The position numbers and the translations under genes were made by a program. The notes under the pieces were generated by a model. That model saw only the letters and a program-made list of their open reading frames with translations. It searched no databases and was not told where the DNA came from. From Methanospirillum hungatei (GTDB lineage Archaea > Halobacteriota > Methanomicrobia > Methanomicrobiales > Methanospirillaceae), in assembly GCF_019263745.1 (NCBI RefSeq), contig NZ_CP077107.1, positions 1,116,001 to 1,180,000 of the forward strand: a stretch of DNA of 64,000 nt. Reading direction: 5' to 3'. This document shows positions 12,101 to 43,736 of this stretch, piece after piece (position 1 is the first letter of the stretch; each line of letters opens with the position of its first letter).

Positions 12101-12102
12101 GG

Positions 12103-12639: not shown

Positions 12640-12649
12640 GGTGACTGAC

Positions 12650-18694: not shown

Positions 18695-19209
18695 CCCGAT
18701 CTTAGTTGACCGGGTTTTTCATGACAAATTTGATCTTGTTATTGCATCCATGACACCTGCAGTCAGGAATCCCCATGATCTCTCCCTCATGCTTGAAACT
18801 GCAAAAGGAATCTGCTATTACAGTGGGTGGGTTCATCGAAAATGGGATCCCTCATACTATGACCTCTACAAAACTCTGTTTCATGAGGAGTTCAAAGAAT
18901 CACCCCATGGGTTTTACCTCCCGTTCATGTATCTGTACCTGCTCGGGTACCGACCGGTAGTATCCCTTCTGGAGGATGACTGGAGTAATTACGAGACGAT
19001 AGATGAGTATATTGAGACTACTGCTGGTTTTTTCAGCACCACAAGACAGATTGATGACCAGATGAAAGACCGTATCAGGGAGTATATCACACCCCATACA
19101 CAAGATGGAAAATACCTTGCCCGATCACAGGTAATAACCGGCATGATGGTCTGGGATGTAAGAGAACAGAACACAAAACCCTGATTTTACAACAGGAGAA
19201 GATTCAATT

Positions 19210-19857: not shown

Positions 19858-20613
19858 CTATTCAGTCCTGCAGAATGCTGTTTTTCCGATGATGAACATG
19901 ATGATGTCAAAACACAACAGGACCAGGACATCCAGTTCCATCGGGAAGAGCTGCACCCAGGTATCTCCCATCATGACCGTCCGGAGGGCATCAACCCCAT
20001 ACGTAAGAGGATTTACATAACTCGCCCATTGAAGCCATACTGGAACATTGGCAAGCGAAAAGAGTGCCCCGCTTAAAAAGAACATCGGGAGATTGATAAA
20101 CGTCTGAATAAGCCCGAATCCCTCAAAACTTTTCATCAAGCTTGCAAAGGTAAGGCCAATACACACAAGACCGGTCGTTATCAGGATCATGAGTGGCAGA
20201 GCCTCGAATACCATGAACACCGTAACCGGTATTCCGATAAGGTACGCAAACGGAAAGATGATGATTCCCTGGATCATGACATCTGTACTGACTCCAAGCA
20301 TTTTTCCCAGAAAGACTGACGTCCTTGAGATAGGAGAGACCAGGATCTCTTTTAGAAACCCGAATTCCCGGTCCCATATGACCGACACTCCCATGAACAT
20401 AGCTGTAAACAGCATTGCCTGGACCACCAGCCCGGGAAAAATAAACTCCTGATAATTTATTCCAGGCATACCAGATGAAAATCGCATCCCAGTCCCAAAG
20501 ATAAAAAGCCATAACAGTGGCTGACAGATGGCGTTTATGAGCCGGGGTTTTTCCCGCAGAAATTTCTTAACTTCCCGTAGCCACAGGGTGTAAATCCCCC
20601 GAAGTTCACTCAT
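19858..20613 (-). CDS. ABC-2 type permease (DrrB-like)
   Basis: A 251-residue membrane protein with six predicted segments and the DrrB-like cytoplasmic block VIWDREFGFLKEILVSPISR (about residues 78-97), plus NPLTYGVDALRT near the end. It pairs with the ATPase at 20610-21602, with which it overlaps by four bases. Such pairs export drugs, lipids or polymers. It is the last gene of the long minus-strand transport cluster. Confidence 0.87.
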   Translation of the reverse strand: MSELRGIYTLWLREVKKFLREKPRLINAICQPLLWLFIFGTGMRFSSGMPGINYQEFIFPGLVVQAMLFTAMFMGVSVIWDREFGFLKEILVSPISRTSVFLGKMLGVSTDVMIQGIIIFPFAYLIGIPVTVFMVFEALPLMILITTGLVCIGLTFASLMKSFEGFGLIQTFINLPMFFLSGALFSLANVPVWLQWASYVNPLTYGVDALRTVMMGDTWVQLFPMELDVLVLLCFDIIMFIIGKTAFCRTE

Positions 20614-21602
20614 CTGGCTCTCCGCCTCTTCATCATAGCAACCCTGCCGGTCTGCTCCCGAACCTCTCCCCCGACCAGGTCTTTTCCCGTGTAATGGATG
20701 AAGACATCATTCATGTCCGGATGGGTGATGGTAATATGGTCAATCCGTATACCTGCATGAACTGCTGATTCGACAATTCGGGGAAGAAGGAATTGAGCAT
20801 TCTGCACAAAGATTTTAATTTCCGACCCCTGAACGGACACATCTTTTACAATATTATCCCGTATCAGCACGTCTGACAGATTCTGGATCTGATCAGAACC
20901 CATTATAATAGTATCTCCTGCAACTTCCTGTTTTAATAATGACGGCGTGTCCATCGCAACTATTCTTCCCTTATCAATAATTGCAACCCGATCACAAAGC
21001 CGGTCTGCCTCCTCCATGTAATGAGTAGTCAGAATAATGGTCATCTCTTCTCTTTTTCGCAATTCTCTGATGTAATCCCAGATATGTTCACGGCTCCGGG
21101 GATCCAGACCAATGGTGGGTTCATCAAGAAACAGGACACGGGGATAATGGAGCAGGCCGCGAGCGATTTCCAGTCTTCTTCGCATCCCTCCGGAATAGGT
21201 ATACATGAAATCATCAGCCCTATCAGATAATCCGACGAGTTCTAGAACCTCGTGAATCCGCATATTCTGCTCATAAATCGGAACCCCATAGAGATCAGCA
21301 TGCATCTGGAGGTTTTCACGGGATGTCATATCAGAATCAACACTTGGATCCTGAAATACGATACCTATAGACTTGCGGACCTGAGCCGATTCACGAATAA
21401 TATCAAACCCGTTTATTTGTGCAGAACCAGAGGAGGGTTTCAGGATGGTACAGAGCATAGATAAAAAAGTGGTTTTACCCGCACCATTCGGTCCGAGTAG
21501 TCCGAAAACCTCCCCTTTCTGGATAGTCAGAGAGATATTGTTCACGGCAGTGTGTGAACCGAATCGTTTGGTAAGATCGTGTGTTTCAATAATAGATGTC
21601 AT
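20610..21602 (-). CDS. ABC-2 type ATPase (DrrA-like)
   Basis: A 330-residue ATPase: Walker A GLLGPNGAGKTTFL, signature YSGGMRRRLEIARG, Walker B RVLFLDEPTIGLD, H-loop LTTHYMEEADRLCD. The extra C-terminal 100 residues are typical of DrrA-type exporters (DVFIHYTGKDL). It lies 8 bases after the FecE-like gene 21610-22368 and overlaps its permease. Cargo unknown; position suggests a link with the metal-chelate importer next to it. Confidence 0.9.
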   Translation of the reverse strand: MTSIIETHDLTKRFGSHTAVNNISLTIQKGEVFGLLGPNGAGKTTFLSMLCTILKPSSGSAQINGFDIIRESAQVRKSIGIVFQDPSVDSDMTSRENLQMHADLYGVPIYEQNMRIHEVLELVGLSDRADDFMYTYSGGMRRRLEIARGLLHYPRVLFLDEPTIGLDPRSREHIWDYIRELRKREEMTIILTTHYMEEADRLCDRVAIIDKGRIVAMDTPSLLKQEVAGDTIIMGSDQIQNLSDVLIRDNIVKDVSVQGSEIKIFVQNAQFLLPRIVESAVHAGIRIDHITITHPDMNDVFIHYTGKDLVGGEVREQTGRVAMMKRRRAR

Positions 21603-21609
21603 AAATCAT

Positions 21610-22368
21610 TTATCCAGTTAACGGGATAACAACCGGATATCCATACATCTCACTAATTGCTGTCTGTACACCATAGACATCATGGATCATCTCCGGAGTA
21701 ACATCCTTACAGGATCCTGCAGAATAAATCATTCCGGATTTGAGAAAGATGAACTTATCAAGAAATCGCAATGCAAGGTTGAGATCATGCATGGTCATGA
21801 TGACAGAGACTGAATGAAACCGGGTAATATTGCGGATCTCGGAGAGTATCTCTAGCTGGTTTTTTAGATCCAGGCTGGATGTTGGCTCATCAAGGAGAAG
21901 TAAATCAGGCTCCTGGACAAGAGCTCTGGCTATAGATACTTTTTGAAGTTCCCCACCGCTCATCTGGTCAATATACTGAAGAGAGAGATGTTCCAGGTTT
22001 AACCGCTTTATGACTCCATGAACGATCTTCAGATCTTTTTCTGAAATATCCCAGGTGATATGAGGCCGCCGCCCAAGAAGAATAGCATCAAATGCCGTCA
22101 TCCTTCCACTTTCCTGTTTCTGTGGGACGTACCCGAGCCGTTTTGCCACGTCACGTTTCGCAAGATGCATGATATTCTGTTCTTCTACCATAATCGTCCC
22201 CCCGGTTGGTTTGAGGATCAGATTCAGGCATCTCAGCAAGGTAGTTTTCCCAACCCCATTCGGGCCCATTATGGCAAGAACTTCGTTTCGTCCCAGGTCG
22301 AAGGTCACATCATTAAAAATTTCCCTGCTTTTATACTGAAACGATAAATTACCGACGGTAAGAATCAT
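21610..22368 (-). CDS. FecE/BtuD-type ABC ATPase
   Basis: A 252-residue ATPase of the iron-siderophore/cobalamin import class: Walker A AIMGPNGVGKTTLLRCL, Q-loop YVPQKQESGR, signature MSGGELQKVSIARAL, Walker B LLLLDEPTSSLDLKNQ, H-loop MTMHDLNLAL. It overlaps the FecCD permease by four bases, so the two form one importer with the binding protein at 23457-24569. Confidence 0.92.
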   Translation of the reverse strand: MILTVGNLSFQYKSREIFNDVTFDLGRNEVLAIMGPNGVGKTTLLRCLNLILKPTGGTIMVEEQNIMHLAKRDVAKRLGYVPQKQESGRMTAFDAILLGRRPHITWDISEKDLKIVHGVIKRLNLEHLSLQYIDQMSGGELQKVSIARALVQEPDLLLLDEPTSSLDLKNQLEILSEIRNITRFHSVSVIMTMHDLNLALRFLDKFIFLKSGMIYSAGSCKDVTPEMIHDVYGVQTAISEMYGYPVVIPLTG

Positions 22369-23435
22369 CGATTATACCCCCTGATCAGGAGATAGAGAAA
22401 CACAGGTGCACCAAGGAATGAGGTGACCACAGCAACCGGTACAACATGCGGGACTATTATCACCCTTCCGACGGTATCTGATGCCAGAAGTAAAATTGAC
22501 CCCATGATAATCGTCCCCGGAATAGTAAACCGATGGTCATCACCCACAATCCTCCGGATGATATGAGGAGAGATGAGACCCACAAATCCAATAATTCCTA
22601 AAAATGACATTATCACCGCAGTTATCACTGAAACAACGATCATTCCTACAATCCGAACCCTTGCTACATGAACTCCAAGACTTGATGCAGTCTCATCGCC
22701 GGCATCGATAGCATTGTAGTCCCACCGGTGATAGTAAAAATATACCAGGGATAATACAGTAACAACTGCCATAATTGCTAGTTCCCCCCAGTCTGCCCTG
22801 CTCACATCTCCAAAGGTCCAGAATACAACCGCTGCAAGCTGGGTATCATCTGCAAAAAGCTGGAGAAACATGGTCGCGGCAGTACATAATGAACCAATTG
22901 CAACTCCGGCAAGAACAGTAACTTCAGGTGTCGCCCGTTTCAGGTGGGAAATCAATAAGATTACTGCGGTAGCCATCAGGCATGAAATGAAAGCGACAAA
23001 TGTAGTCGCGAATGGATTATCAATGACATACGGATTGATGGAACTATTCTGCATCACACCTGAACCAAGGATAATTATAGAGAATGCTGCTCCAAACGCT
23101 GCTGCATGAGCTATACCAAAAGTAAATGGTGAAGCAAGAGGATTTCGTAAGATCGACTGCATCGCAAGACCGGCACACCCCAGTCCGGCACCGGCTACGA
23201 TAGCAGTCAATGCCTGAGGAAGTCTGATACTCAGAATGATCTTATTCCATTTTGGCGATACAGACTCCCCTATTAATGTCTGAAACACTTCAATCGGGGG
23301 AATTGATACCGCACCGCTTGAAATTGATAATATCAGGAGAAAAAAAAGAATAATTATCCCGATACGGAGGATAATGATCTTCGTCCGGGTATACTGGAGA
23401 TAAGCTACTGGTAGTTCTTCATTGTCAAAATGCAT
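22365..23435 (-). CDS. FecCD/BtuC-type permease
   Basis: A 356-residue permease with about ten membrane segments. FecCD family marks: IRLPQALTAIVAGAGLGCAGLAMQSILRNPLA near residues 70-100, TVLAGVAIGSLC, and the coupling-helix region GFVGLISPHIIRRIVGDDHR near 305. It imports a chelated metal or corrinoid with the ATPase that follows. The first 20 residues are cytoplasmic before the first helix. Confidence 0.92.
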   Translation of the reverse strand: MHFDNEELPVAYLQYTRTKIIILRIGIIILFFLLILSISSGAVSIPPIEVFQTLIGESVSPKWNKIILSIRLPQALTAIVAGAGLGCAGLAMQSILRNPLASPFTFGIAHAAAFGAAFSIIILGSGVMQNSSINPYVIDNPFATTFVAFISCLMATAVILLISHLKRATPEVTVLAGVAIGSLCTAATMFLQLFADDTQLAAVVFWTFGDVSRADWGELAIMAVVTVLSLVYFYYHRWDYNAIDAGDETASSLGVHVARVRIVGMIVVSVITAVIMSFLGIIGFVGLISPHIIRRIVGDDHRFTIPGTIIMGSILLLASDTVGRVIIVPHVVPVAVVTSFLGAPVFLYLLIRGYNR

Positions 23436-23456
23436 GAATTACTACTTCCTCTCTCC

Positions 23457-24569
23457 TTATTGCATACTCATTTGTGTGAATGCCTGACCTTCAAATCCAT
23501 CCCTGTTGATCTGTGAGAACAACTTCTTCCCAACAAGGAATTCATAGATATCATCAGCCTCACTGACCGGATCGATATCGGAGAATTTTTCAGGATAGAG
23601 TAATTTTCCGATGTAATAGGCATCTGCAAGAACGCTCTCCTGGTTTGTGGTATACCAGTTAAAGGAGAGTAACCCATATACATCCCCGCTCTTTACCGCT
23701 TTCATATCCTCAAATTCTGATTTTTTCAGTTCACTTAAAGCATCTGCACCCTGGGACTTGAGTTGTTGTGAACCAAGGTCAATGAATACCATGTCCGGAT
23801 CCCAGCCGATGATAGATTCCTTTGCAACATCACCACAATCCATATCAGGTTTTGCTGATTCTGCTGCAACATTTTTGACTGCTACCAGCTGAAACGGGGT
23901 ATATGCAAATGAAGTTCCCTGTAGACCATGTGATCCGGCACATCCCACTCCTCCGACATATGCAGATATTTTGTCTGCATCGGGTACATCTTTCGTCCGA
24001 TCAGAGAGATCCTGCTTACGTTCGTTAAAGAAAGAGATTACCTCTTCTGCACGGTTCTCCTTATTGAGGATTTTTCCCATGAGACGAAGGGTTTTCTGCA
24101 TATCCTCATACTCATCAACCAGGTCCCCATAATTTAATGCAACTACCGGGATTCCAGTCTTTTCCTGAAGCTGATTTGCCTCATCCTTGTTTGTGTATGT
24201 TTTGAAGATTACCTGTGGACCGATATTTGTGATCTTTTCCGGATCATCCTTCCTGAACTCACCAAAGATAGGGAGATCGCCAAACTGTGGATTTGCAAGA
24301 CGGTATGCACGTGAATCGTCCGGAGAGATATTTACCTCCAGGGCATCAACCGCGATTACCCTATCCTGTGCCTGCAGGTAAGTCAGGTATCGCAGACATC
24401 CAGCTCCTGAACAGATTACCGAATCAGGGTTGAGAGGGACCGTGACCTCTCTTCCGAGACCGTCAGTAATCGTTGTCTCTTCTCCGGAAACAGGAAATAC
24501 AAATGTTCCTGCGAGGAGAGAAACCACCATAAACCCTAGAAAAAAGGTTTTAGAGAATGAACGAAACAT
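23457..24569 (-). CDS. Metal-chelate/corrinoid binding protein 1
   Basis: A 370-residue extracytoplasmic substrate-binding protein. Signal peptide with core FFLGFMVVSLLAGTFVF, then ITDGLGREVTVPLNPDSVIC as in the FecB/BtuF family. An internal CAGSHGLQGTSFAYTPFQLV loop and an MDCGDVAKESIIGWDPDMVFI helix/strand are conserved. Three cysteines (SGAGCLRYL, GVGCAGSHG, DMDCGDV) stand out and may bind metal. First gene of importer module 1, 21 bases before the permease. Ligand not deducible. Confidence 0.88.
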   Translation of the reverse strand: MFRSFSKTFFLGFMVVSLLAGTFVFPVSGEETTITDGLGREVTVPLNPDSVICSGAGCLRYLTYLQAQDRVIAVDALEVNISPDDSRAYRLANPQFGDLPIFGEFRKDDPEKITNIGPQVIFKTYTNKDEANQLQEKTGIPVVALNYGDLVDEYEDMQKTLRLMGKILNKENRAEEVISFFNERKQDLSDRTKDVPDADKISAYVGGVGCAGSHGLQGTSFAYTPFQLVAVKNVAAESAKPDMDCGDVAKESIIGWDPDMVFIDLGSQQLKSQGADALSELKKSEFEDMKAVKSGDVYGLLSFNWYTTNQESVLADAYYIGKLLYPEKFSDIDPVSEADDIYEFLVGKKLFSQINRDGFEGQAFTQMSMQ

Positions 24570-24639
24570 ACAGATGTACGATTAGATTGTATTTATTATT
24601 ACGTTTTTTGAATTGTTATGATCTTTTTCTAATTATATT

Positions 24640-24944
24640 TTAATGGGTAAATATTTGATCCGATTCCCCCTTTATATACGCAAGCCGTGCTAATTTTAAA
24701 AGGACTATCGCTACGGCAACCCGTGGGCCGACTGCCCCGAGTGCCGGGGATATAACACCTATTCTGGCTAATACTATCAGCGTAAAATTTGCAGGAGGGC
24801 CAGCACCACATTTACAATGATAATTATGCTGGTATGTCTTCCGAGCCTGAAAAAGTCAGGCAGTGCTGAAAGAACACCCTGCATAAGAATTACATTGGAG
24901 GATAGAAACCATATCAAAGGAAAAATAATGCTTTGGATACTTTT
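24640..24944 (-). pseudogene. Decayed small membrane-protein gene
   Basis: Between the two binding-protein genes, two overlapping minus-strand frames each carry one half of a hydrophobic protein. The first reads SIIFPLIWFLSSNVIL, then MQGVLSALPDFFRLGRH (ATG 24884) and a hydrophobic helix before a TGA; a one-base shift continues with TLIVLARIGVISPALGAVG and VAIVLLKLARLAYIKG to TAA 24640. Sequence composition is coding-like, unlike the AT-rich DNA around it. No ribosome binding site is seen. A frameshifted remnant is the simplest reading; a programmed shift or sequencing error is possible. Family not recognised. Confidence 0.45.
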
Positions 24945-25000
24945 TTAGTGGTTTCATAAAATAAAAATAAGAGTGAAACTGACTATCAGGGGAAAAAGCC

Positions 25001-26008
25001 CTATAAGGTCGGAGAGAAATATTCCCCTCCAGTACTTCCGGGAATAAAAGTATCTGCATATTCTTTAAGCACATCTGACGGATGAATATTTACAAATTTT
25101 TCCGGATGCAAAGATTTTGCAATATATACCAGGCCCGCCGGACTCCTTGGTCCGTATGCCAGATCACCGTTCAGAACATATACCCGGTCGTTTTGAACTG
25201 CTGACAGGGTATCAAATCCTGCTCTTTTAAGAACGTCTTCCCTGACCTGGTCAAGTGTTTTATCAGGTTTTACCGATACAACCTTCAGGATAACTTCAGG
25301 GTTTGTACTCATGACCCATTCAGAAGTGACCTTCGGCCACTGTTCTTTCAGATCTGCAGCAATATTCTTTCCTTTTGCCATTCTAACCAGAAGATCAGTT
25401 CCACTATCAAGTCCCTGTGCAGTAAAGTCAGTATACCCTTCAATATAAACAGCAGGTTCATCATCAGAAGCGATATCCTGAAGATCCTCATCTACAACAC
25501 TCTTCCATTTTTTGAAAAATTTTAGATAATTCTCTGATGCTGTTTCTGCACCGGTCATGATACCGAGTGCTACAACATCGTGTTCAAGGGTGTTAATCTT
25601 GTAACAGTCAAGATAGATCAATTGAATTCCTGAATTTATAAGTTGGTCTGCATTTTTTGGCTTTGAACTTGAGTATGAAACAACCGCATCAGGCTGTAAT
25701 GAAAGCAGCCGTTCAGGACTCGGAGTTTGCCAGTTTCCAACACTTTGTGCATTTGGAAGATGTGACATGAGTTGTGGATCGGTGGTTGTACTTTCTACAA
25801 CACCGACAACCTTATCTCCAATGCCAAGTACAACCATCATCTCTGCTGCATCACTATTCAGGCATACCACCCGTTCTGCAGTCTTTGGGAGCGAGATCTC
25901 CTGCCCGGTTGAGTCGGTAAATGCAATGGTTGCACTACAGATGGATGCTCCGGTCAGAAAAATGAGCAATACGACCATACAAAATTTCATAACGGTTATG
26001 TTCTTCAT
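25001..26008 (-). CDS. Metal-chelate/corrinoid binding protein 2
   Basis: A 335-residue FecB/BtuF-type substrate-binding protein. I start at ATG 26008, preceded by AGGT; the frame stays open for 36 more codons upstream but those overlap the permease gene. Signal peptide core MVVLLIFLTGASICSA, then FTDSTGQEISLPKTAERVV, a VVSYSSSKPKNADQLINSG region and a VYVLNGDLAYGPRSPAG segment. It closes importer module 2 (FecCD 30059, FecE 29269). Different enough from binding protein 1 to suggest another ligand. Confidence 0.88.
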   Translation of the reverse strand: MKNITVMKFCMVVLLIFLTGASICSATIAFTDSTGQEISLPKTAERVVCLNSDAAEMMVVLGIGDKVVGVVESTTTDPQLMSHLPNAQSVGNWQTPSPERLLSLQPDAVVSYSSSKPKNADQLINSGIQLIYLDCYKINTLEHDVVALGIMTGAETASENYLKFFKKWKSVVDEDLQDIASDDEPAVYIEGYTDFTAQGLDSGTDLLVRMAKGKNIAADLKEQWPKVTSEWVMSTNPEVILKVVSVKPDKTLDQVREDVLKRAGFDTLSAVQNDRVYVLNGDLAYGPRSPAGLVYIAKSLHPEKFVNIHPSDVLKEYADTFIPGSTGGEYFSPTL

Positions 26009-26042
26009 AATTTTACCTGGATTTTTTCTTATACTGAGATGT

Positions 26043-26768
26043 TCATAGTCCAACCTTTCTGAATACCCGCACAGAGAGGCAAAGAACCGCAATGCACAGA
26101 ACAGAAAGGACTTCAATCTGTAAAAACGGGATTATCCCATCAGCCACCAGTCTGATGCCATCTATTGCATAACTCAGGGGATTGATATGAGCTATGACTC
26201 GTAGCCATTCAGGCATCTGATCGTAGGGCATCATCGCGGTTGATGCAAAAAATATGGGCATAGTTACCATGGCATTGACCGCCGAATACTGGTCATGATC
26301 CCCGACGTAAATCGCAAGTGTTGTTGCCGCTGATGACAGAAGGGCCCCGAAGATGAAGAGGATGAGATATGTCATCAGGAGCTGTGACGGAGAGTAGAGA
26401 CGGGCACCAAGCAGGAATGCGATGATGAAGATCACAGTCGTCTGGATAAGGCCTCTGATGGTAATGACAAGGATCTTTCCAAACAGGATCGTCTCGCGGG
26501 GAGGAGGAAGAGCTAAAAATTTATTGAAAAACCCCAACATCCGATCCATGATTAGCAGCCCCCCGCCAGTCATTGAGGCAGAGAGGGTTGTCATTGCAAG
26601 AATACCCGGTGTTACAAAATCTATGTAATGATCGGTAAACCGAATCGGAAGGGCAAGGCCCACAAATATTAGCCAGGCCGCTGGCATGACCATAGCAGAG
26701 ATAAAACCCCATCTTCCCCGAAACCACCGGATAAGATCCCTCCGGCAGTAGACAAGAACTGGATTCAT
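26043..26768 (-). CDS. ABC-2 type permease, partner of the disrupted ATPase
   Basis: A 241-residue, six-segment ABC-2 permease. It begins MNPVLVYCRRDLIRWFRGRW and contains LLIMDRMLGFFNKFLALPPP and NPLSYAIDGIRLV. It closely resembles the intact protein at 43733-44458 throughout, so the two are recent paralogues. It overlaps the upstream ATPase by four bases. With that ATPase interrupted by an IS, this permease may be unpaired or served by the paralogue (inference). Confidence 0.88.
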   Translation of the reverse strand: MNPVLVYCRRDLIRWFRGRWGFISAMVMPAAWLIFVGLALPIRFTDHYIDFVTPGILAMTTLSASMTGGGLLIMDRMLGFFNKFLALPPPRETILFGKILVITIRGLIQTTVIFIIAFLLGARLYSPSQLLMTYLILFIFGALLSSAATTLAIYVGDHDQYSAVNAMVTMPIFFASTAMMPYDQMPEWLRVIAHINPLSYAIDGIRLVADGIIPFLQIEVLSVLCIAVLCLSVRVFRKVGL

Positions 26769-27719
26769 CCTCTCCTTCCGGTCATATTACGAAAGGTACT
26801 CAGTTTAAACGGGCTTGTATCCTCTTCTGTCCCAACAAGATGGAGAAAAACATCATCCAGTGACGGTCTCCTGAGCGACATAGCCTGAACGCGAATTCCT
26901 GCATCAGAAAGTGCATCCTTTACCAGAGGTAATGCCGATTCTCCATTATCAGCATAAAAGATGAGATCATCACCATCATGAAATGCAAACCTGACTCCGG
27001 GAATGCTAATGCCCTGATACTCACCCTCAATCGATACTGAGATAACATCCTTAGATATGAATCCTTTCAACCTTTCAGGAGTGTCTATTGCCCTTATTAC
27101 TCCATGATCGATGATTGCAACCCGGTCACAATACCGATCAGCCTCATCCATATAATGAGTTGCTACAAAAACCGCCATTCCATTCTTTTGGAGGACTTTG
27201 ATATGCTCCCAGATCTTTTTTCGTGCCGCTACATCAAGTCCAACGGTTGGTTCATCCAGAAAGAGTACCTTCGGATTATGTACGAGAGCCTGGGCAAGTT
27301 CAAGCCTTCGCCTCATTCCCCCGGAATAGACCTTTGCAAAGTCATCTGCCCGATCCAGGAGATCAAGAGTCTTCAGGGCATTTTCAGTTTTTTCAGCAGG
27401 ATTTGGGACGCCGTAGAGTTCTGCATACAGCATTACATTCTCCCGGCCGGTCAGTCTGACATCAACCGCCATATCCTGGGGGACATAACTTATCGATTCT
27501 CGAACCTGACGAGGTTCTTTTAAGATATCAAAACCACAAATACTGGCCGTCCCTTCTGTTGGTTCCAGAAGTGTTGTAAGCATCAGGACCGTAGTCGTCT
27601 TCCCTGATCCGTTCGGACCTAAAATTCCAAATATTTCATTCCCTACGGATATATTCATCCGATTCACTGCACAGAATTCTCCAAATTTGTCATGAAAAAC
27701 CCGGTCAACTAAGATCGGG

Positions 27720-28964
27720 TTAACCAGTTTCTGGGTCTGGTTCTTTAAGAATTACTGCTGCCTCACTTAATAATCGTAAAACTTCCTCAATCGAAGTTTT
27801 TTTCGGAACCTTAATATAGACTTTTTTTGACTGCTTCATTGATTGATACTGAGTGTCTTCGTAAATTTCATCATTCGTCAAAAGATGCCAGATAATGACT
27901 ACCATCTTTCTTGCGACACTAACAATAGCTTTCCCTGCACCAATAATGTCCTTTTTTGAGGAATAGAACGTTTTGAGATCGTTATCCCTTGACTTGACTG
28001 CTGCATGTGCTGCTTGAATAAGGATCCATCTAGCAATCTTCGAACCCCGCTTAGTGATTGATCCGGTCCGAAGTTTATCAGCAGATTGGTATACTCTGGG
28101 TACCATCCCTAACCAACTTGATAATTTATCACCTGAGGAAAAATCTCTTACATCTCCAATTTCTGCAAGAAGGGTGATTGCAACAATATCTCCAATTCCT
28201 GGAACGGATTTAAGTATTCCAAATTCCCTTGGAAAATTAGTTACTGCATAGCTCGTTGAAATTTTTGTTAAACTGGCAATTTCCTCATTCAGAATCTTTA
28301 TTATCTGAAGACATGAAGCAAGTCGTTCTAGTGCACCTTCAGAGAGTGTAGTTTCTAAAACTTCTCTTAATGCTTCTTCTTTCTTCGTAACTGATGCAGG
28401 GAGAAGACTCACAATGTCGTCAATTGCAATATTATTGAGAATCCCTCTCATGATTAAACTACCCGATTTACCAAAAATGTCCGATAAAACTGAAGAGAGT
28501 CGGAATAACTCTGAATCAAGAATATGATGAATTTCATTCTTGATGGATGAACGCTTTTGAACTAATTTATGTCTTAATCGAATCGTTGAACGAAATTCAC
28601 GATGTTCTCGTGGAAATATTCGAGAGGGATGAATCATTCCTTTCAGAGTAATTGTAGCAATAAACTCAGAATCGATCTTATCTGTTTTTTTATGTGAGAG
28701 AGCTTTCATGTCCCGTGCATTTCCAACAATCACATCACAGATTGGACTTAGAAGATCGTAAATCTGAATCCAATAATCACTTGTTGATTCACATCCTACT
28801 GCCTGAACATTATGGGTCACGATCCAATTCTTTAATGCCATTAATCCAGGCTGTGTTCGGTTAAAGCGGTCAACAATTTTTTCGCCAGTTAATGTCAGGA
28901 TTGTGGCAATTAGAAAAGACTTGTGAAGGTCAAGACCAGCGGCTATATGAAGTTGCTCAGTCAT
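27720..28964 (-). CDS. IS110-family transposase, copy 2
   Basis: A 414-residue protein identical to that at 17450-18694, with the same N-terminal DEDD part (AAGLDLHKS) and C-terminal SVPGIGDIVA and RTGSITKRGS motifs. Intact, so probably functional. Start chosen at ATG 28964 as for copy 1. It runs in the same direction as the ATPase gene it interrupts and its own hairpin (CCCGGTCAACTAAGATCGGG on the plus strand) would tend to stop read-through into the downstream genes. Confidence 0.93.
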   Translation of the reverse strand: MTEQLHIAAGLDLHKSFLIATILTLTGEKIVDRFNRTQPGLMALKNWIVTHNVQAVGCESTSDYWIQIYDLLSPICDVIVGNARDMKALSHKKTDKIDSEFIATITLKGMIHPSRIFPREHREFRSTIRLRHKLVQKRSSIKNEIHHILDSELFRLSSVLSDIFGKSGSLIMRGILNNIAIDDIVSLLPASVTKKEEALREVLETTLSEGALERLASCLQIIKILNEEIASLTKISTSYAVTNFPREFGILKSVPGIGDIVAITLLAEIGDVRDFSSGDKLSSWLGMVPRVYQSADKLRTGSITKRGSKIARWILIQAAHAAVKSRDNDLKTFYSSKKDIIGAGKAIVSVARKMVVIIWHLLTNDEIYEDTQYQSMKQSKKVYIKVPKKTSIEEVLRLLSEAAVILKEPDPETG

Positions 28965-29178
28965 AGTTATCACTGATAATGGGCAGATGAATTGCCTAAC
29001 AGGCCAATTTGTCATCCGCGATCAAAGTCGCACTTTAGCCTGCGAGAGCAATTTAACGGTTAGTTTTTTTCCCAGGATTATATCCTAAAATTTGAACAGC
29101 CTGCTCTGCCCATTATTCTGTAAAGCTCGGTACCTTAACTGTTTTTCATAGGTCGAGCCTGATGGCTACATCATGTCG
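28965..29178 (-). ncRNA. Candidate IS110 guide RNA region, copy 2
   Basis: Same upstream end as in copy 1, read on the minus strand, containing the near copy of the right junction (ATGACAAATTGG). See the reasoning for copy 1; the RNA itself is inferred from the family's known layout. Confidence 0.45.
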
Positions 29179-29268
29179 TTTTTTTGTCAGATTATTTGTG
29201 AGAATCATCGGTTTTGGATCATTCGTATCTTCATGGCCGGTGTTCATTGTATTACCCAAGATCTAGTG

Positions 29269-30048
29269 TCATCCATCTTCTGCTTTTTTCCAGTCAGGTA
29301 CAACATATTGTCCTGATTCGGTTGAGATAAACTGCATAGGGACACCATACACCGAGATGATATTCTCTTTGGTCATGACTTCATCAGCTGTTCCCATTGC
29401 AACGATCTTTCCTTTATTCAAAAGGACGACACGGTCTGCATAATGGTAAGCAAAATTGAGATCATGCACGGCAACAAATACAGAACCTCTCCCGGATTTG
29501 GTTATGGTCCGGATCATGGTGAATACATCAATCTGATGCCTGATATCAAGGGCACTTGTGGGTTCATCGAAGAGATAATACTCCGGTTCCTGGGCGATTG
29601 CCCGGGCGATGAAGACACGTTGTCGTTCACCTCCGGAGAGTTTTGTCAGCATCTTCTCTGCCATGGGAGTAATATTGAGCATGTCCATCGCAATATCAAC
29701 TTTTTCCAGGTCATGAGGGGTCAATGCCCATTGAACGTGAGGACGCCGGCCAAGAATAACAGCTTCGAGAACGGTAGAAGAGGTCAGATATTGAAAGTCC
29801 TGGGGGACATATCCTATCTTTTTTGCGACATCATTCCGGGAGAACTCTGACAATTTTCTTCCGTTCATTGACAAGGTTCCTGATTTCTGGTCGATGATTC
29901 CTGCTATGGTCTTAATGAGGGTACTTTTTCCAGACCCATTCGGACCGATAACACACAGAACCTCTCCATCGTACACGGAGAAACTGATATCATGGAGGAC
30001 CTGAACAGGACCATACCATACATTCAACTGCTCAATTGTCAGGGCCAT
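29269..30048 (-). CDS. FecE/BtuD-type ABC ATPase 2
   Basis: A 259-residue import ATPase: Walker A CVIGPNGSGKSTLIKTIAG, Q-loop YVPQDFQYL, signature LSGGERQRVFIARAIAQ, Walker B YYLFDEPTSALDIRHQ, H-loop VAVHDLNFAY. It sits 10 bases behind the permease 30059-31129 and 21 bases before the disrupted ABC-2 ATPase gene. Part of importer module 2. Confidence 0.92.
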   Translation of the reverse strand: MALTIEQLNVWYGPVQVLHDISFSVYDGEVLCVIGPNGSGKSTLIKTIAGIIDQKSGTLSMNGRKLSEFSRNDVAKKIGYVPQDFQYLTSSTVLEAVILGRRPHVQWALTPHDLEKVDIAMDMLNITPMAEKMLTKLSGGERQRVFIARAIAQEPEYYLFDEPTSALDIRHQIDVFTMIRTITKSGRGSVFVAVHDLNFAYHYADRVVLLNKGKIVAMGTADEVMTKENIISVYGVPMQFISTESGQYVVPDWKKAEDG

Positions 30049-30058
30049 ATAATTCTCC

Positions 30059-31129
30059 TCAGGTAATCACCCGGTGTTTTCCCCGAAGAATCAGGAACAG
30101 GAAAAAGATTCCTCCAATGACATACATGATAACCCCGACTGGAATCTCAACAGGATCCATTACAGTCCTTGCAGCGGTATCTGAAATGAGCAGGATCAAT
30201 GCCCCAAGCAGGGCAGCACAGGGAATAAGGTACCGGTTATCATTCCCAATGAGCATCCGTCCGATATGCGGCCCCATCAGCCCGATAAAGCCAATAATCC
30301 CGGTAAATGCAAGACAGGCAGATGCTGCAAGGGTGGATACACATAATCCGGTCAAACGAAGCCGGTTCACATTCACTCCCAGGTTTTTGGCAACATCATC
30401 ACCGGCTGAAAGACTGTTCAGATCCCAGGCACATGATTCAAGATAGAGGAAACAAAGGAGTGTTATGGGAGCGACAATAATGACTGCTCCCCAGTTTGCC
30501 CCCCACATCCCGCCCATGAGCCAGAGGGTAATCTCCCGTAATTTTTCATCATTTGTCAGGTATTTCAGGATCATGACTCCAGCGGTGAAGATATAGCCAA
30601 TGACCACACCGGCGAGGATAAGAGTAGCACTGGATGAACCTTTCATCCGTGATATCACGTAGATGAGAAGAATTGAGAGCCATCCAAGGAGAAATGCACA
30701 GAGGATAATGACTCCGTTCTGAAATTCTGCCGGAATGAAGGGCATAAGTGATACACCAAACACAATTGCCAGGGCGGCACCGAAGGACGCAGCTGAAGAG
30801 AGACCAAGAGTAAAAGGGCTTACAAGGGGGTTTCGAAGCAGAGCCTGCATGACACAGCCGGCTATGGAGAGGCTTATTCCGGTCAGGATAGCAAGGATAA
30901 CCCTGGGCATTCTAAAATCTATGACAACAGTCTTCTCTGATTTAACAGATTCAAGAGCTGCAGGATCTGTTATCGCCTGAATGATAATTGTTATAATCCT
31001 ATCAAAGGGGATGTGGTATGATCCGGCATATAATGCATAGAAGATGGTTACAACAAGAACAACAAGCAGTGAAATAAGAATGATAAGTTTCTGCCGTTTC
31101 CCTGTCAGATATAATGATGTGGGAGTCAC
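30059..31129 (-). CDS. FecCD/BtuC-type permease 2
   Basis: A 356-residue permease with about ten membrane helices. Family marks: FRMPRVILAILTGISLSIAG, MQALLRNPLVSPFTLGLSSA, LAGVVIGYIFTAG, and GFIGLMGPHIGRMLIGNDNR near residue 290. Same length as the module 1 permease but clearly diverged. It follows the ChlI/D gene by 44 bases on the same strand, tying uptake to the chelatase genes. Confidence 0.92.
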   Translation of the reverse strand: MTPTSLYLTGKRQKLIILISLLVVLVVTIFYALYAGSYHIPFDRIITIIIQAITDPAALESVKSEKTVVIDFRMPRVILAILTGISLSIAGCVMQALLRNPLVSPFTLGLSSAASFGAALAIVFGVSLMPFIPAEFQNGVIILCAFLLGWLSILLIYVISRMKGSSSATLILAGVVIGYIFTAGVMILKYLTNDEKLREITLWLMGGMWGANWGAVIIVAPITLLCFLYLESCAWDLNSLSAGDDVAKNLGVNVNRLRLTGLCVSTLAASACLAFTGIIGFIGLMGPHIGRMLIGNDNRYLIPCAALLGALILLISDTAARTVMDPVEIPVGVIMYVIGGIFFLFLILRGKHRVIT

Positions 31130-31173
31130 AATTCACCAATTTTTAAAAAATTTCCGGGGACGTATCCTGATTA

Positions 31174-33228
31174 TCAGCCCGTTCCATTAACTGTAGAGAG
31201 AGAGGACAATACTGCACCGGATACCGTTTCAGCTGATAGATCAGATATTCGGAAATATCTTCCATGAGTTCGTTCAGCAATTGAAGGACAAAAACCGAGT
31301 TTCAGTCCAAACCCTGACTTTTTATTCTCTGTATCTATTACCACGGTCTCAATACCTGCCCTGGCAAGGTCATCAGAGGCGGACATTATCTCCTCCTTGA
31401 GTCGTCCACCAGTTCCAACATTAGCCCTCCCATCGGTTATCAGAACAAGAAGGGGCTCCAGGGAGGGATATTTTCGCTTCTCATTGAGGAATATTGTAAG
31501 GGCTTTTTGAAGTCCGGCAGCAAGGGGTGTTTTTCCACCGGTCGGGAGTTCTGACAGACGGGTAAAAGCAAGATCGATGCTTGATGTAAGAGGGAGGATG
31601 AGATCAGCGGTCTCTCCCCTGAAGGCGATGAGCCCTACACGGTCACGGAATGTATACGCTTCTTCCAGCAGAGAGAACACTGCTCCCTTTGCTGCTGCCA
31701 TCCGCTGTTCTACCCCCATAGACCCGCTTGCATCAACAACGAAGAGGCATGCGGTTGCAGATTTACCTATCCGTCTCTTCTGGAGGAGTTCATCTGCCCG
31801 TATTACTACTGCAAGATCACCTGAAGGTCTTGTTCGTTGACCAGGTGCTACAGCACGGATAGTGGCATCAAGTGCAATATCTGTACCGGATACTCTCTTC
31901 TCTGCCCCAATATAATGGCCCCTCCGGTCAGATCCCTTTGTATCAAACCTCCGGCCTGGGGCATATATTTTATCAGGTCTCTTCTTGTTCTTCGGCCTCA
32001 GTTTTTCCGGATCGATGGGAGATCCGATACAAAAAAGTTGTTGTTCCTGCGGATCTGAACCCCGGGATCCAGATAGTTCATTCTGGCAATTCTGACTGTT
32101 TTGTTCGCAGGATACGTTCTGTGGCTCTGAATTATCAGAACCAGTCTGCTGTGTTGAGGGGGTATCATTGAGATCATCAGGTTGCTGCTCAGGTTCCTGG
32201 TACATAAGGTCATCAAGCTGCTGGGGATCTACTTTTGGCTCCTCAAAGGGCCTTCTTCTCATCCGGTGAGGAAGTGCCAGTTCTATAGCCTGTCTAAGAT
32301 CATCAGGAGATACTTTATCCCTACCATCCAAGGCCGCCAGGGTTTTTGCTGTGCGTACAATGGTGATCTCCGCACGGTGGGTCCTTACACCAAGGCTGAT
32401 ACAGATATCGACCGCTTTTCTGACAAGCATCTCTGATATAACAACCTGTGGAAGAATCTCCATGGCCTTTTGTATCTGCCTTGAGATTCGTTTCTGGCTT
32501 TTTTTGAATCTCCTGCGAACCTCTCGCGGATTCTGATGGAATTCTTCAGCCCTCCTGACAATCTCCATCCGGTCATCCGGGTTATCAATCGCTTCAACAG
32601 AGACCTGCAGACCGAACCGGTCAAGAAGCTGGGGTCTGAGTTCCCCTTCCTCAGGATTCATGGTGCCGATGAGGATGAACCGTGCGGGATGAGAGAATGA
32701 GATCCCCTCTCGTTCCACCGTGTTTACTCCCATCGCTGCTGCATCAAGGAGAACATCCACAACATGATCATCAAGTAGGTTCACCTCGTCGATATAGAGG
32801 ATCCCCCGGTTTGCATCTGCAAGAATACCTGGTTCAAGTGCCTTGATTCCCTTTTTTAATGCTCGTTCGATATCGATTGTTCCAACCACCCTATCTTCTG
32901 TCGCTCCTATCGGGAGGTTAACAACCCTGACCTTACGTTTGATTGAATCGGAGAGATGTTTCTTACCCTTTTTATCAGTACAGAGATCACAAAGCTCTGT
33001 CTCTCTCTTTGGGTCACATGAGAACGGACACCCGGGTACTATCTTAATTTCTGGTAGGATCTCTGCCAGAGCACGAACGGTGGACGATTTTGCTGTGCCC
33101 TTCTCTCCCCTGATAAGCACTCCTCCAATCGAAGGATTAATAGCATTGAGAAGGAGGGCTTTTTTCATCTGTTCCTGACCAACAATTGCACTAAACGGAA
33201 GAAGAGTTTTTTTTAATTGATGTGTCAT
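31174..33228 (-). CDS. Fused ChlI/ChlD-type chelatase ATPase subunit
   Basis: A 684-residue protein joining the two motor subunits of a class I tetrapyrrole chelatase. Residues about 1-340 are the AAA+ ChlI/BchI part: Walker [18 protein letters not shown], a Cys-rich insert ([16 protein letters not shown]), Walker [14 protein letters not shown], sensor [20 protein letters not shown] polar Gln/Asn/Asp linker spans about 340-400. The C-terminal part is a VWA domain with MIDAS motif [10 protein letters not shown] and [12 protein letters not shown]. It would drive metal insertion by the CobN subunit encoded next door; TAATG overlap couples their translation. The metal (Co, Ni or Mg) is not fixed by sequence. 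Confidence 0.92.
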
Positions 33229-36200
33229 TATTTACCCACCTTCATATGCCCAATCTTCTCTTTCCAGCCGGCGATGTCGTTCATGGTAAAGATATCAATC
33301 GAACCGCCCTGCACATCTCCTCCTGTTCCATCCATTTTATCTTCCATCCATCCTTCAATCATAAGATATGCCTCTTTCAGGTCGTCGATGACATCAGGAT
33401 CAGCCTGCCATATCCCACGCTCACTCGCTTCAAGGAGTCTTCGTCCTATTTCCTCAAGGGCATACGGATTATTCTCTTCAAAAAACTCACGGTTCTTGTC
33501 ATCCAGGATAAATGTCCGTGCTATGTCATCAAAGATCCAGTCGTCCACCTGGCCGGTTGTGGCATCCCACCCATATAATCTACCAATTCTTCGTGAAAGT
33601 TCCCCGGCTCCTACATACCCATGTTCTTTGAAACCATCGATATATCTCGGGTTGAGTAATTTTGTCCTGACCACTCGGGTTAACTCCTCAGCAAGTGTTC
33701 GAACCTCAATCTGGGAGGGATTACGGGTATCCCCATAATATGTCGCTATTTTCTCTCCTTTCACCGTCTCTGCGGCGATGGTCAGTCCCCCATGAGTTCC
33801 GAAGTAACAGCAGCATCCAAGGAGATCGTATTCATCTGTAGCAGTTTTATTAAAGGTGACATCAACCATTTTCAACTGGGCAATGAGTTCATCATGAGAA
33901 GCTGTTCCATAGGCATCTCTGCCATATCCATACCCGTTCCAGGCGATGTAAATATCGGCAAGTTCAGCCTCTTCTTTCCATGCCGATGCATACAGGGCAA
34001 GATTCACTCCCATCCCATATGTTCCGGCTTTACTCCCAAATATCCGTGGAGTCGATCTAGTGCTTTCTCCCTGGTGTTTTCTGAGGTAATTCATCTCATC
34101 AGGTTCGTCAAGAGCAGCAACCATTGAGATTGCATCATCCAGTAGTTCGATACAGTTATAGAAACAATCACGAAGAATCCCGGAGGCCCTGATATTGATA
34201 TCTATTCTGGGCCTTCCCAGACTCGAAATGGGTATAATTCTTACATCTCTGACCCGCCCCTGTCTCCATACCGGCTCTACTCCAAGAAGATGGAGGAGTT
34301 TTCCAAATGTCTCCCCATCTGACCACATGATGTCAGATGCCATCCAGTACACGGCCACCGTTTCAGGATATCTTCCCTCTTCTATCAGGTATTTCTCCAG
34401 AAGAACTTCGGCAAGTTTTCTTCCAACCCGGAATGCTGCCTCGGTCGGGACCGAGTACGGGTCAAGACTGTAAAAGTTCCTGCCAGTCGGGAGGATGTCA
34501 GTTCTGCCCCTGCTCACAAGACCTGATGGCCCGGGTTCGATAAATGCACCGGAAAGGCCCCGTAAAAGGGCAGTATGTTCATCTGATGATTCTATCTGGT
34601 CAGATAATTCCAATATCTTATTGGTAACCGGAGTAAGAAGTAAGGATTCGCTCCTCTGGAGACGGGAACCCAGGGCTGTTACTGCAGCATCTTCAGGGGT
34701 TTTTCCGTCAAGAATGGCTTTAGTAAATACTATCCCTGCCTCATCAAGCATCCTGAGGAGAGCTAATTCACCGGACTTTGGTGTGATATCAAGACCCATC
34801 AGATCTACGATAAGTAACCGAAGCTCCTGATTGAACCGGAGAAGACCGGTGATGTAGGCCGCCCGTCTCTCACCTTCCGGAACAGAACCAAATATGTGCA
34901 TCCCATCAGGAATCTGAGTGTTATAGATCCGGGTCAACGATCCATGAACGGCATCAATAACCTCATTCATCCCTCCGCCACTCTCCCGGATCTTTTCCAG
35001 GTTAATCTCCTGCTCCAGCCTGGATTTTTTGATGAGTTCCAGGATGACATGCTCTAATGCATGGGCCCTAGAAGGATCTCCATCTCTGGTTCTGGTGTAT
35101 TCATCAATCCGGTCAGCAAGTTCAGACAACTCTCCATAGAGGCCACTTTCGGTCATAAGCGATTGCATATGTCCGATGAGGGTTGCCTGAGTCCGCCTTT
35201 TTGCGATGGTCCCTTCAGGGGGGTTGTCGGTGTTATAGATGTAGAGATACGGAACCGGACCAAGGATGGCATCAGGGATACAGGAACCTGAGAGAACGGT
35301 TGATTTCCCTGGAAGGAACTCAAGGGTTCCATGTGTTCCGACGTGAATTACGGCATCAGCCTTGTATTCCCTCACCAGGTACTGGTAGGTTGCCAGGTAA
35401 TGATAGGGGGGAGGAATCGTTGGATCATGCAGGATTTTACAGACCTGACCATCACACCGACTGCCTGCACATCCCCGTTTCGGCTGGGTCATGACGAGGG
35501 CATTTCCATAGGAGATACCGGTAATGACAAGTTTCCCATTGTGGAGCATCCCCGCTGGAACCCCGTCTTTCTCCTCTCCCGGGGGGTTTCCCCAGGTTTC
35601 TTTGAGCTGGTCCCGAAGTGTGTGAGGAAGATCAGCAATCCATGGTCCCCAGGTTTCCTGCCCGATGCAAGCAAGAGCCCCTCCTTTGGCAACCGTTTCA
35701 GAAACCGATGTCCACCTGAACTCTGAAAAGGCCTTTTTATCAAGTATCGTGGTTATAAGTTCCTTTCCATCTGCCGGAGGATCCACGCTATAACCTGCAT
35801 CTTTCATTACCTGTAGAATCCGTGCTACTGACTCCAGGGCATCAAGATGTGCAGCCGTTCCGACGGTAGCTTCCAGTGCAGCACAGGGTGAATTATTCAG
35901 GATGAAAGCAACTTTTCTATCGGCTGGAACTTTCTTCTTCAATCGGACCCATCCGGAGATGAGCTGGGTTAATCGGTTTATCCGCTCAGGGAGAGGGTCA
36001 TGCCATTCGGTCTCTCCCATGACCGGATCGTCTGGTGATTTAACACCGATGGGTATCATACTTGTCATCCCCATAAATTCAGGGACAACAATCGCCCATC
36101 CGACCTCTGATGCTGTAAGGCCTGCACTATCCTGTTCCCAGTCTTCTCTGGTCCGGTTATAGATGACAACCGGGTGGATGATAGGAACATTCAACCCCTT

Positions 36201-36947
36201 GAGTCCTTCCACCGTCTCTTTCGGGTTTTTTGAGAGGGTGACTGACTGAAGGTTGATGAGCAGATCTATTATTCCAGAGAAATATGAGTTGATTACTTCC
36301 TGTCCGGGTCGTGCACCAAGATCTGCATCTCCGGTTCCGATACAAAAAACCGGAATAACATCATGATACTCCTCAACTGTTCTGATAAGTGCATCAATGA
36401 CCCGGAGATCACGGTTTGCCCAGTACAGGCGATAAAAGAGAATCCCGATGAGAGAATCATGTTTTCTTCCCCGCCATGCGAAATAATCCTCGACAGTGGT
36501 AAAGATCTCCGGGGCATCCGGGTGATAAATCCCATCCCAAACCGCCGGTTCAGGGGAATCATATACGATGAGTTCATGGAGGACCTCTGCCCGGAGATAC
36601 CGGATAAGATTATCTAGATTCTTCTCTCCACCATAGATATAATAGGTCGAGGTGGTTATTGCTATTTTAAGATCGACTGTTGATGCAGATAGCCCTTCCT
36701 GGTCGTATCCAATGGGAATCACAGGGATATTTTTTGGGATTTTAGGAATGAGTTCATCCCAGAAGGGATCGGTTGATGGATGAATTAAGAAAAGATCTGA
36801 TGATTCAAGGTGAGCGAGTATCTCTTCTAATTTCTCGGGATTCCGGGCAGCAATGCTTGTAAAGAAGTTATGATCAAACCCCTGGTTTGTACATGCCTGA
36901 GTGAGGAGTGGTAGTTCCCCGCCCCAGATAATACCTGAAATTTTCAT
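33228..36947 (-). CDS. cobN: CobN/BchH-type chelatase large subunit
   Basis: A 1239-residue CobN-family protein, the porphyrin/corrin-binding catalytic subunit of an ATP-dependent chelatase. Conserved blocks: [18 protein letters not shown] near residue 170, [19 protein letters not shown], the central [17 protein letters not shown] (His-rich, around residue 550), [20 protein letters not shown], and a C-terminal [13 protein letters not shown] and [12 protein letters not shown]. Full length. In bacteria CobN inserts cobalt late in aerobic B12 synthesis; methanogens use the early-cobalt route with CbiX-type chelatases, so the substrate here is uncertain. First gene of the long minus-strand cluster; its promoter must lie at 36948-37300. 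Confidence 0.92.
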
Positions 36948-42746: not shown

Positions 42747-43736
42747 ATGGACAAATACACTGATAACAGCCTATCAAAGAGCGAATATCCGATAATTACA
42801 CAAAACCTGACAAAAAAGTTTGGAGATCTCTATGCTGTTCACCAGATGAATCTCTCCGTAGGAAATGAAATATTTGGAATTTTAGGCCCGAATGGCTCTG
42901 GGAAAACCACAACTGTTCTGATGTTGACAACACTTCTTGAACCTACCGACGGAACAGCAAGTATCTGCGGATATGATATCCATACCCATCCCAGACAGGT
43001 CAGGGATTCTATCAGTTATGTCCCTCAGGATATGGCGGTAGATGTCAGACTCTCCGGACGGGAAAATGTCATGATGTTTGCCGAACTCTATGGTGTCAGA
43101 GATCCCGCCAGGAAAACCGAAGAGGCACTGAGGATTTTAGAGCTTGCAGACCGGGCTGATGAACGGGCGAAGGTGTATTCGGGCGGGATGAGAAGAAGAC
43201 TTGAACTGGCACAGGCACTTGTTCACAATCCAAAGGTTCTCTTTCTGGATGAACCAACTGTCGGACTTGATGTAGCAGCACGAAAAAAAATCTGGGAGCA
43301 TATCAAAATACTTCGTAAACAGGGAATGACAATTTTTGTGACGACCCATTACATGGACGAAGCAGACAAATATTGTGACAGAGTTGCAATAATTGACCGG
43401 GGAAGAGTTCAGGCTGTTGATACTCCGGATAATTTGAAAAACATGATTTCTCAGGATATCATATCGGTCACCATATCCGGTTCCTTTTCCACGATAGATG
43501 TGCCGGGGGTCAGATTTGCATTTTCTGAAGATGAACAACTGATCTTTTATGCAGAACATGGCGAGGCTGCATTGCCACTGGTACATAATGCTCTGACCGA
43601 AGCAGGTATGAGAGTTGAGGCCATGTCTCTTCGAAGACCCTCTCTTGATGATGTCTTTCTTCACCTCGTAAGTAGTGCAGATGATAAAAGTCCCTTTAAA
43701 CTAAGTACTTTCAGGAACATGATGGGGAAACGATGA
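42747..43736 (+). CDS. ABC-2 type ATPase, intact paralogue
   Basis: A 329-residue exporter ATPase: ITQNLTKKFGDLYAVHQ, Walker A GILGPNGSGKTTTVLML, signature YSGGMRRRLELAQALV, Walker B VLFLDEPTVGLDVAARK, H-loop VTTHYMDEADKYCD and a DrrA-like C-terminus (LRRPSLDDVFLHLVS). Very similar to the IS-disrupted gene at 26765-29247 from end to end. An AGGAG ribosome binding site lies just before the ATG. It overlaps the permease gene by four bases. Confidence 0.92.
   Translation: MDKYTDNSLSKSEYPIITQNLTKKFGDLYAVHQMNLSVGNEIFGILGPNGSGKTTTVLMLTTLLEPTDGTASICGYDIHTHPRQVRDSISYVPQDMAVDVRLSGRENVMMFAELYGVRDPARKTEEALRILELADRADERAKVYSGGMRRRLELAQALVHNPKVLFLDEPTVGLDVAARKKIWEHIKILRKQGMTIFVTTHYMDEADKYCDRVAIIDRGRVQAVDTPDNLKNMISQDIISVTISGSFSTIDVPGVRFAFSEDEQLIFYAEHGEAALPLVHNALTEAGMRVEAMSLRRPSLDDVFLHLVSSADDKSPFKLSTFRNMMGKR

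Follow-up and report, generated by a model that had tools for sequence, protein, structure and literature searches.

A cysteine-rich CobN-type chelatase gene linked to importer and ABC-2 transporter genes in Methanospirillum hungatei

What a CobN-type chelatase does in a methanogen, and why its gene should lie beside two sets of importer and ABC-2 genes, is the question raised by the stretch of Methanospirillum hungatei DNA analyzed here (the window: 64,000 nucleotides, G000:C1:1116001-1180000, from a host genome that is one contig of 3.39 Mb). The host genome contains F430 genes (CfbA with CfbE, CfbD, and CfbB) and a cobalt-early B12 cluster (CbiM, cobalt-factor II methyltransferase, and CbiD, seemingly joined, on inspection of the sequence, by CbiN, CbiQ, CbiO, and CbiT). 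AhbB is also present, together with an AhbA-like protein that narrowly misses its cut-off and two radical SAM proteins that do not reach family cut-offs; at one locus (L191, 7065-10304), AhbA/AhbB-like siroheme decarboxylase genes are flanked by two radical SAM genes that are NirJ/AhbC/AhbD-like and below all cut-offs. To our knowledge, none of the F430, cobalt-early B12, and related Ahb-type routes needs a class I chelatase. With its F430 and cobalt-early B12 genes in place, the host needs the CobN of the window (CobN-A) for neither route. The view of the initial annotation that a CobN calls for explanation in a methanogen is therefore sharpened: The cfb and cobalt-early clusters are in place, and CobN-A itself is cysteine-rich and non-canonical.

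Two gene blocks on one strand

The twelve genes named in the initial annotation lie in the order given there, all on the minus strand from 36947 to 19858, and searches against Pfam and NCBIfam confirmed their families. The "many 4-base overlaps" described between them were overstated, since 4-base overlaps occur at three of the 11 junctions and a 1-base overlap at one, that between CobN and ChlID; a 431-base gap separates the SBP1 and SBP2 genes. An IS110 element had also been overlooked, and the first ABC-2 ATPase gene is not intact. The features are as follows.

33228..36947, minus strand: CobN-type class I chelatase large subunit of the cysteine-rich clade (CobN-A); PF02514, 1189.5 bits
31174..33228, minus strand: ChlI/ChlD fusion (ChlID; AAA+ and VWA), the ATPase partner; TIGR02442, 786.5
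30059..31129, minus strand: FecCD-type permease 1; PF01032, 305 bits; 82-86% identity in relatives
29269..30048, minus strand: FecE-type ATPase 1; PF00005; best NCBIfam model PRK13548 (heme ATPase), 219.8, under the cut-off of 261
26765..29247, minus strand: ABC-2 (DrrA-like) ATPase 1, interrupted; N-terminal codons at 29247-29186, the rest from 27681; intact in relatives
27682..29185, minus strand: IS110-family insertion element; PF02371 and PF01548; transposase at 27720-29015
26043..26768, minus strand: ABC-2 permease 1; PF01061, 105.6 bits; 74-95% identity in Methanospirillum relatives
25001..26008 (likely start 26008), minus strand: SBP1, a Peripla_BP_2 binding protein; PF01497; 57-59% identity in relatives
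23457..24569, minus strand: SBP2, binding protein of the second module; PF01497; 2etv, 241.7 bits; 96% in G002 and G008
22365..23435, minus strand: FecCD permease 2 (second module); PF01032; 97% in L144/L145
21610..22368, minus strand: FecE ATPase 2 (second module); PF00005; 98-99% in L144/L145
20610..21602, minus strand: ABC-2 ATPase 2 (second module); TIGR01188, 374.7, above the cut-off of 312.45; 96-97% in L144/L145
19858..20613, minus strand: ABC-2 permease 2 (second module); PF01061; 27% identity to permease 1
42747..44458, plus strand: intact extra ABC-2 pair (A3/P3); 77%/75% identity to A1/P1

At gathering thresholds, an Rfam scan of the window detected no cobalamin riboswitch or other RNA element, and ARAGORN found no tRNA in it.

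The run on a single strand stands, but it consists of two units. In two related genomes, the second module (SBP2-FecCD2-FecE2-ABC2A2-ABC2P2, followed in G002 and G008 by a flavin-reductase-like gene and a methyltransferase gene) is located elsewhere. In the complete genome G002, it lies near 245-250 kb and the CobN operon near 322-333 kb, about 78 kb apart; in G008, the two are on different contigs. We therefore reject a single operon with a duplicated importer and exporter, as the initial annotation had proposed: The second module is an independent block beside unit 1 in the host genome, and the doubled arrangement is a local juxtaposition. The similarity of the block to G002 and G008 (96-99% for protein, 94.3% for DNA over 6178 bp, window 24901-18726) begins at 24901, 100 bp past the end of SBP1, and takes in 331 bp upstream of SBP2, including a TATA-like GTATATAAAG that may act as a promoter element for this block. 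For comparison, the DNA identity of unit 1 to the same genomes is about 72-78%, and that of the mcr operon to G008 is 82%. Since the second block is more alike across genomes than unit 1 or the mcr operon, it may recently have undergone lateral exchange. Recombination between insertion sequences as the event joining the two units was unsupported: One copy is within the methyltransferase gene and the other within the ABC-2 ATPase gene, whereas the boundary of the block falls at 24901. In the window, the mcr operon (10799-15123) matches G008 at 82%, G007 at 74%, and G002 and G005 at about 71% and only partially; it may be an isoenzyme operon.

Two copies of the insertion element, at 17229-18732 (plus strand) and 27682-29185 (minus strand), are 1504 bp each and align at 99.93% identity, and their DEDD_Tnp_IS110 and Transposase_20 domains place them in the IS110 family. 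The second copy sits between FecE 1 and ABC-2 ATPase 1 and splits the ATPase gene: The gene starts at 29247, its first codons run to the element, and the frame picks up again at 27681 as EFCAVNRMNISVGNEIFGILGPNGSGKTT, in agreement with the intact gene of relatives. The residual open reading frame (26765-27667) keeps Walker A and has lost the N-terminal strand region, so its product is probably inactive and the ABC-2 ATPase of unit 1 probably non-functional in the host genome. The intact A3/P3 pair may substitute for the interrupted pair; similar pairs in G002 and G008 are located away from CobN (L146, L147). The other IS110 copy breaks the methyltransferase gene, which is intact in L144, and both targets have an A-rich stretch, with ATTTG common to the ends. 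A further ABC-2 copy in the host genome also looks broken (L149, 5976-7665, G000:C1:2384000-2398000), its ATPase being two open reading frames and its permease match carrying a TAG stop.

The cysteine-rich CobN clade

CobN-A scored below the cut-offs both for the cobaltochelatase CobN equivalog (TIGR02257, 760.9 against 822.05) and for magnesium chelatase BchH/ChlH (TIGR02025, 750 against 829), and the sole model it passed was NF004646, which is named CobN. Some members of its clade do pass TIGR02025 (for example L127, 879.3), a score of 918.3 puts the second CobN of the genome (L117) above the TIGR02257 cut-off, and a homologue from ANME (L079) passes BchH with 991.2. The AlphaFold2 model of CobN-A (mean pLDDT 85.5, pTM 0.87) has the class I chelatase fold, aligning with M. 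tuberculosis CobN (7c6o) at Z 40.2 (rmsd 4.1, 1050 residues), with ChlH at 37.9 (2.8, 970), and with HmuS at about 33 (3.9-4.2, about 1000). ChlID passes TIGR02442, a putative cobaltochelatase subunit (786.5 against 779.45), and carries AAA+ and VWA motifs (Walker GEKGTAKSS, DASGS). CobN-A thus resembles the CobN of CobNST in its fold, in a catalytic-type histidine within HxGxHG, and in having an ATPase partner. It differs from that enzyme in failing TIGR02257, in carrying Cys-Cys-Cys in place of Asp-Asp, and in a 5-residue loop insertion with three cysteines in and around it; the operon has ChlID in place of CobS/CobT, and the host makes B12 by the cobalt-early route. We conclude from its sequence that CobN-A is a non-canonical CobN of a cysteine-rich subfamily.

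Two neighboring observations concern other homologues. The second CobN of the genome (L117, G000:C1:1058000-1076000) is of the canonical DD type and is followed by its own ABC-2 pair; near it are a NifH-NifD-like fusion, a second nitrogenase component 1-like protein, a FecE-type ATPase, and a CobO-type corrinoid adenosyltransferase. In ANME (Methanophagales), an HmuS/BchH-like chelatase gene with the motif DLDHYYEFFGG directly adjoins a cysteine-type CobN (L079, 6051-9821).

An alignment of archaeal homologues sorted the metal-facing motif into three types: DD (as in M. tuberculosis CobN), DH (as in HmuS, ChlH-like), and CC[C]. Among the 114 sequences of the CC type (79 at under 90% identity), C355, C493, C498, C503, C1045, and C1046 are present in 100% and C1047 in 95%, whereas these signature cysteines occur in 0% of 42 sequences of the other types. 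Sequences of the CC type, one CSC variant among them, group as a single clade (support 1.0) with members in Methanospirillum, Methanolinea, Methanoculleus, Methanothrix, Methanosarcina, ANME-1, ANME-2, Methanocaldococcus, and a few bacterial MAGs. Our literature search found no description of a cysteine-type CobN.

Where these cysteines would sit can be read from the better known enzymes. With phmmer, C1046-C1047 fall opposite the Asp-Asp of M. tuberculosis CobN and C1047 opposite the histidine of ChlH; the catalytic-type histidine, H539, is present in HxGxHG. The central cation of HmuS is held by His-538 and His-1209 (PMC12583661), to which H539 and C1047, respectively, correspond by motif register. 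C493, C498, and C503 are found within and beside an insertion that M. tuberculosis CobN and ChlH lack; in the model, it falls between the strand 424-428 and approximately the helix 442-447 (model residue = protein residue - 59). Judged by its spacing to the catalytic histidine, this insertion would correspond to Loop I, which the HmuS authors placed over the edge of the ring (PMC12583661). Most of the signature cysteines are therefore predicted to map to the metal-facing site and the gating loop, where they may meet in space; the confidence of the model is low in the cysteine loop (residues 435-443 under 50).

Conservation of unit 1 and its link to ABC-2 genes

Unit 1 (CobN-ChlID-FecCD-FecE-ABC2A-ABC2P-SBP) is kept in other members of Methanospirillum and recurs in a different order in further Methanomicrobiales, with relatives' genes taken as mechanical open reading frames labeled by similarity to the window proteins and several assemblies being fragmented. 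The colinear seven-gene set was found in L033, in L114, and across L118 and L119, which are two contigs of one assembly. Elsewhere, the genes regroup: CobN-ChlID-ABC2A-ABC2P in L034; CobN-ABC2A-ABC2P-SBP divergent from ChlID-FecCD-FecE in L153, with the same set in L152; and a FecCD-FecE-ABC2A-ABC2P-SBP block away from CobN in L148. Across 61 relatives, a close ABC-2 permease gene lay at most 10 kb from 17 of 35 CobN genes, compared with 0.44 expected from random placement (maximum 5 in 20000 draws), a comparison in which the genomes are related and the events not independent. The link between CobN and ABC-2 genes is thus far above chance, and a check of gene order in relatives, as suggested in the initial annotation, bears out the conservation of unit 1. 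Because peptides of CobN-A served as queries for the related loci, the cysteine clade is over-represented among them; in a second, partly independent set of genomes, drawn from around a Methanocaldococcus, both DD and CC types occur.

The ABC-2 pair beside a cysteine-type CobN is recurrent and not universal. Where a cysteine-type locus had 4 kb or more of flank on each side (42 loci), we counted ChlID near 28, SBP near 23, FecE near 22, FecCD near 21, a Gate-domain membrane protein near 15, ABC2A near 13, and ABC2P near 12. No ChlID lay within reach at about a third of them, and about 70% lacked an ABC-2 pair, which indicates that the exporter is not obligatory. No conserved block was found upstream of CobN, where similarity to relatives ends about 15 bp from the gene. 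In the corresponding upstream position, a divergent CobW-type GTPase gene precedes the operon in M. hungatei M59 (L033, 1120-2160) and a ZnuA/ABC-3 metal transporter in G002 (L114).

What unit 1 may do

The transport proteins narrow the substrate to a degree. Among solved structures, matches of SBP1 include heme- and B12-binding proteins; neither the two binding proteins nor the FecCD proteins reached a curated substrate-specific cut-off in NCBIfam, the score of FecCD1 against the vitamin B12 transporter BtuC being 210.9, below 461. The ABC-2 genes are like DrrAB-type exporters in pairing an ATPase with a permease of the same families. They differ in that the permeases are under the DrrB cut-off (TIGR01247, 120.1 and 220.5 against 223.05) and the genes are linked to a chelatase and an importer. 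The open reading frame of ATPase 1 falls just under the DrrA cut-off (TIGR01188, 308.4 against 312.45), so that ATPase 2 alone passes (374.7) and overall the pairs fall outside DrrAB. Neither ABC-2 permease matched a solved structure in a sequence search.

We favor the following reading, which we hold to be plausible at somewhat less than an even chance: Unit 1, the first seven genes and the ancestral set, would bring in a tetrapyrrole-type metal chelate, use ATP to handle its metal at a thiolate site, and export a product. SBP1, FecCD, and FecE would import the metal chelate; in the cytosol, the cysteine-rich CobN and the ChlID AAA+ motor would move metal into or out of the ring, with the active-site chemistry performed by cysteine thiolates or by an iron-sulfur cluster that the cysteines hold; and the ABC-2 pair would export the finished or spent ring. 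Here we infer the substrate class, the metal, the direction of the reaction, and the export. The grouping of importer, chelatase, and exporter suggests the handling of a tetrapyrrole-type metal complex, and the conserved link of CobN to FecCD/FecE/SBP and ABC-2 genes is consistent with combined import and export, as first proposed, if not with importer and exporter doubled in one system. With regard to direction, the ChlID partner suggests ATP-driven action and hence insertion, whereas the flanking importer, HmuS, and a CobN1 induced by nickel limitation suggest salvage or removal. This CobN1, from the methanogen Methanothermobacter (M. marburgensis), reaches a high level only under nickel limitation (PMC12350162); we count the response in favor of our reading by analogy, likening CobN1 to CobN-A simply as a CobN homologue.

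Removal, which is one direction of the favored reading, is possible on its own terms if on the unlikely side. Metallo-tetrapyrroles brought in by the importer would lose their iron or nickel to an HmuS-like de-chelatase, and the empty ring would leave through the ABC-2 pair. The structural relative HmuS (Z about 33) takes iron from heme (PMC12583661), CobN-like BtuS proteins of M. barkeri vary with the iron source (PMC10846266), a CobN is induced by nickel limitation (PMC12350162), and the chelatase gene is flanked by importer and exporter genes. With the HmuS of the Bacteroides hmu operon, CobN-A further shares the class I chelatase fold, tetrapyrrole-type uptake genes, and an anaerobic host. 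However, the HmuS motif LSLDHxxEFMGG, which includes His-1209, is replaced by the CCC motif in CobN-A, and a DLDHYYEFFGG-type motif is found in other archaeal homologues (L079, L025). The operon is missing hmuY and hmuR and so is no hmuYRSTUV operon, its importer is of the ABC type instead of TonB-driven, and HmuS needs no ATP (PMC12583661), whereas here the gene of an AAA+ partner overlaps the chelatase gene.

Cobalamin salvage is unlikely. The importer would bring in cobalt-free or incomplete corrinoids, and CobN with ChlID would insert cobalt late, a role speculated on for Haloferax. BtuF is among the proteins that SBP1 resembles, ChlID passes the putative cobaltochelatase model TIGR02442, and salvage has been suggested for haloarchaea that have CobN and ChlID without a cobalt-late pathway (PMC8305020). 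The Haloferax pair HVO_B0051/HVO_B0050 is, like the genes here, a mosaic of a CobN-like large subunit and ChlID; in that source's account of the pair, the salvage role is a speculation and no FecCD/ABC-2 unit is reported (PMC8305020). Against this role, CobN-A fails TIGR02257, which the other CobN of the genome passes, the canonical Asp-Asp motif is replaced by Cys-Cys-Cys, and a cobalt-early pathway is present with a CbiM-type cobalt transporter.

The metallophore system of the initial annotation, in which ABC-2 would export a metallophore, FecCD/FecE/SBP would re-import its metal complex, and CobN would use the metal, is quite unlikely. The FecCD and SBP families often carry siderophores, SBP2 resembles an iron-binding SBP (2etv), and the block of importer and ABC-2 genes also exists without CobN (L148); but Pfam and NCBIfam scans of the operon proteins and scanned neighbors found no synthesis gene, and the link to a chelatase points to a tetrapyrrole. 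An accidental grouping of genes in a gene-rich region, with no functional unit, is highly improbable: The second module is adjacent in the host genome only, so the accident reading holds for the junction of units 1 and 2, and it is disfavored for unit 1 by the conserved seven-gene set and the strong ABC-2 enrichment.

Extended across methanogens and ANME, our favored reading would amount to a novel class I chelatase with a cysteine-lined site (thiolate or iron-sulfur) that works alongside ChlID and an ABC importer, often also with an ABC-2 exporter, and that would salvage, for example, nickel from environmental tetrapyrroles (such as F430 from dead cells), demetallate them, and export the empty ring; in this full form, it is a decidedly speculative proposal. 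The 2025 survey of the chelatase superfamily describes the roles of archaeal CobN homologues as unclear (PMC12583661). A clade with invariant cysteines at the metal site and a conserved transport set gives this problem a handle. The known F430 and B12 routes of the host genome mean that neither explains the cysteine-type CobN, and the automatic name "cobaltochelatase CobN" is unsafe for the cysteine clade.
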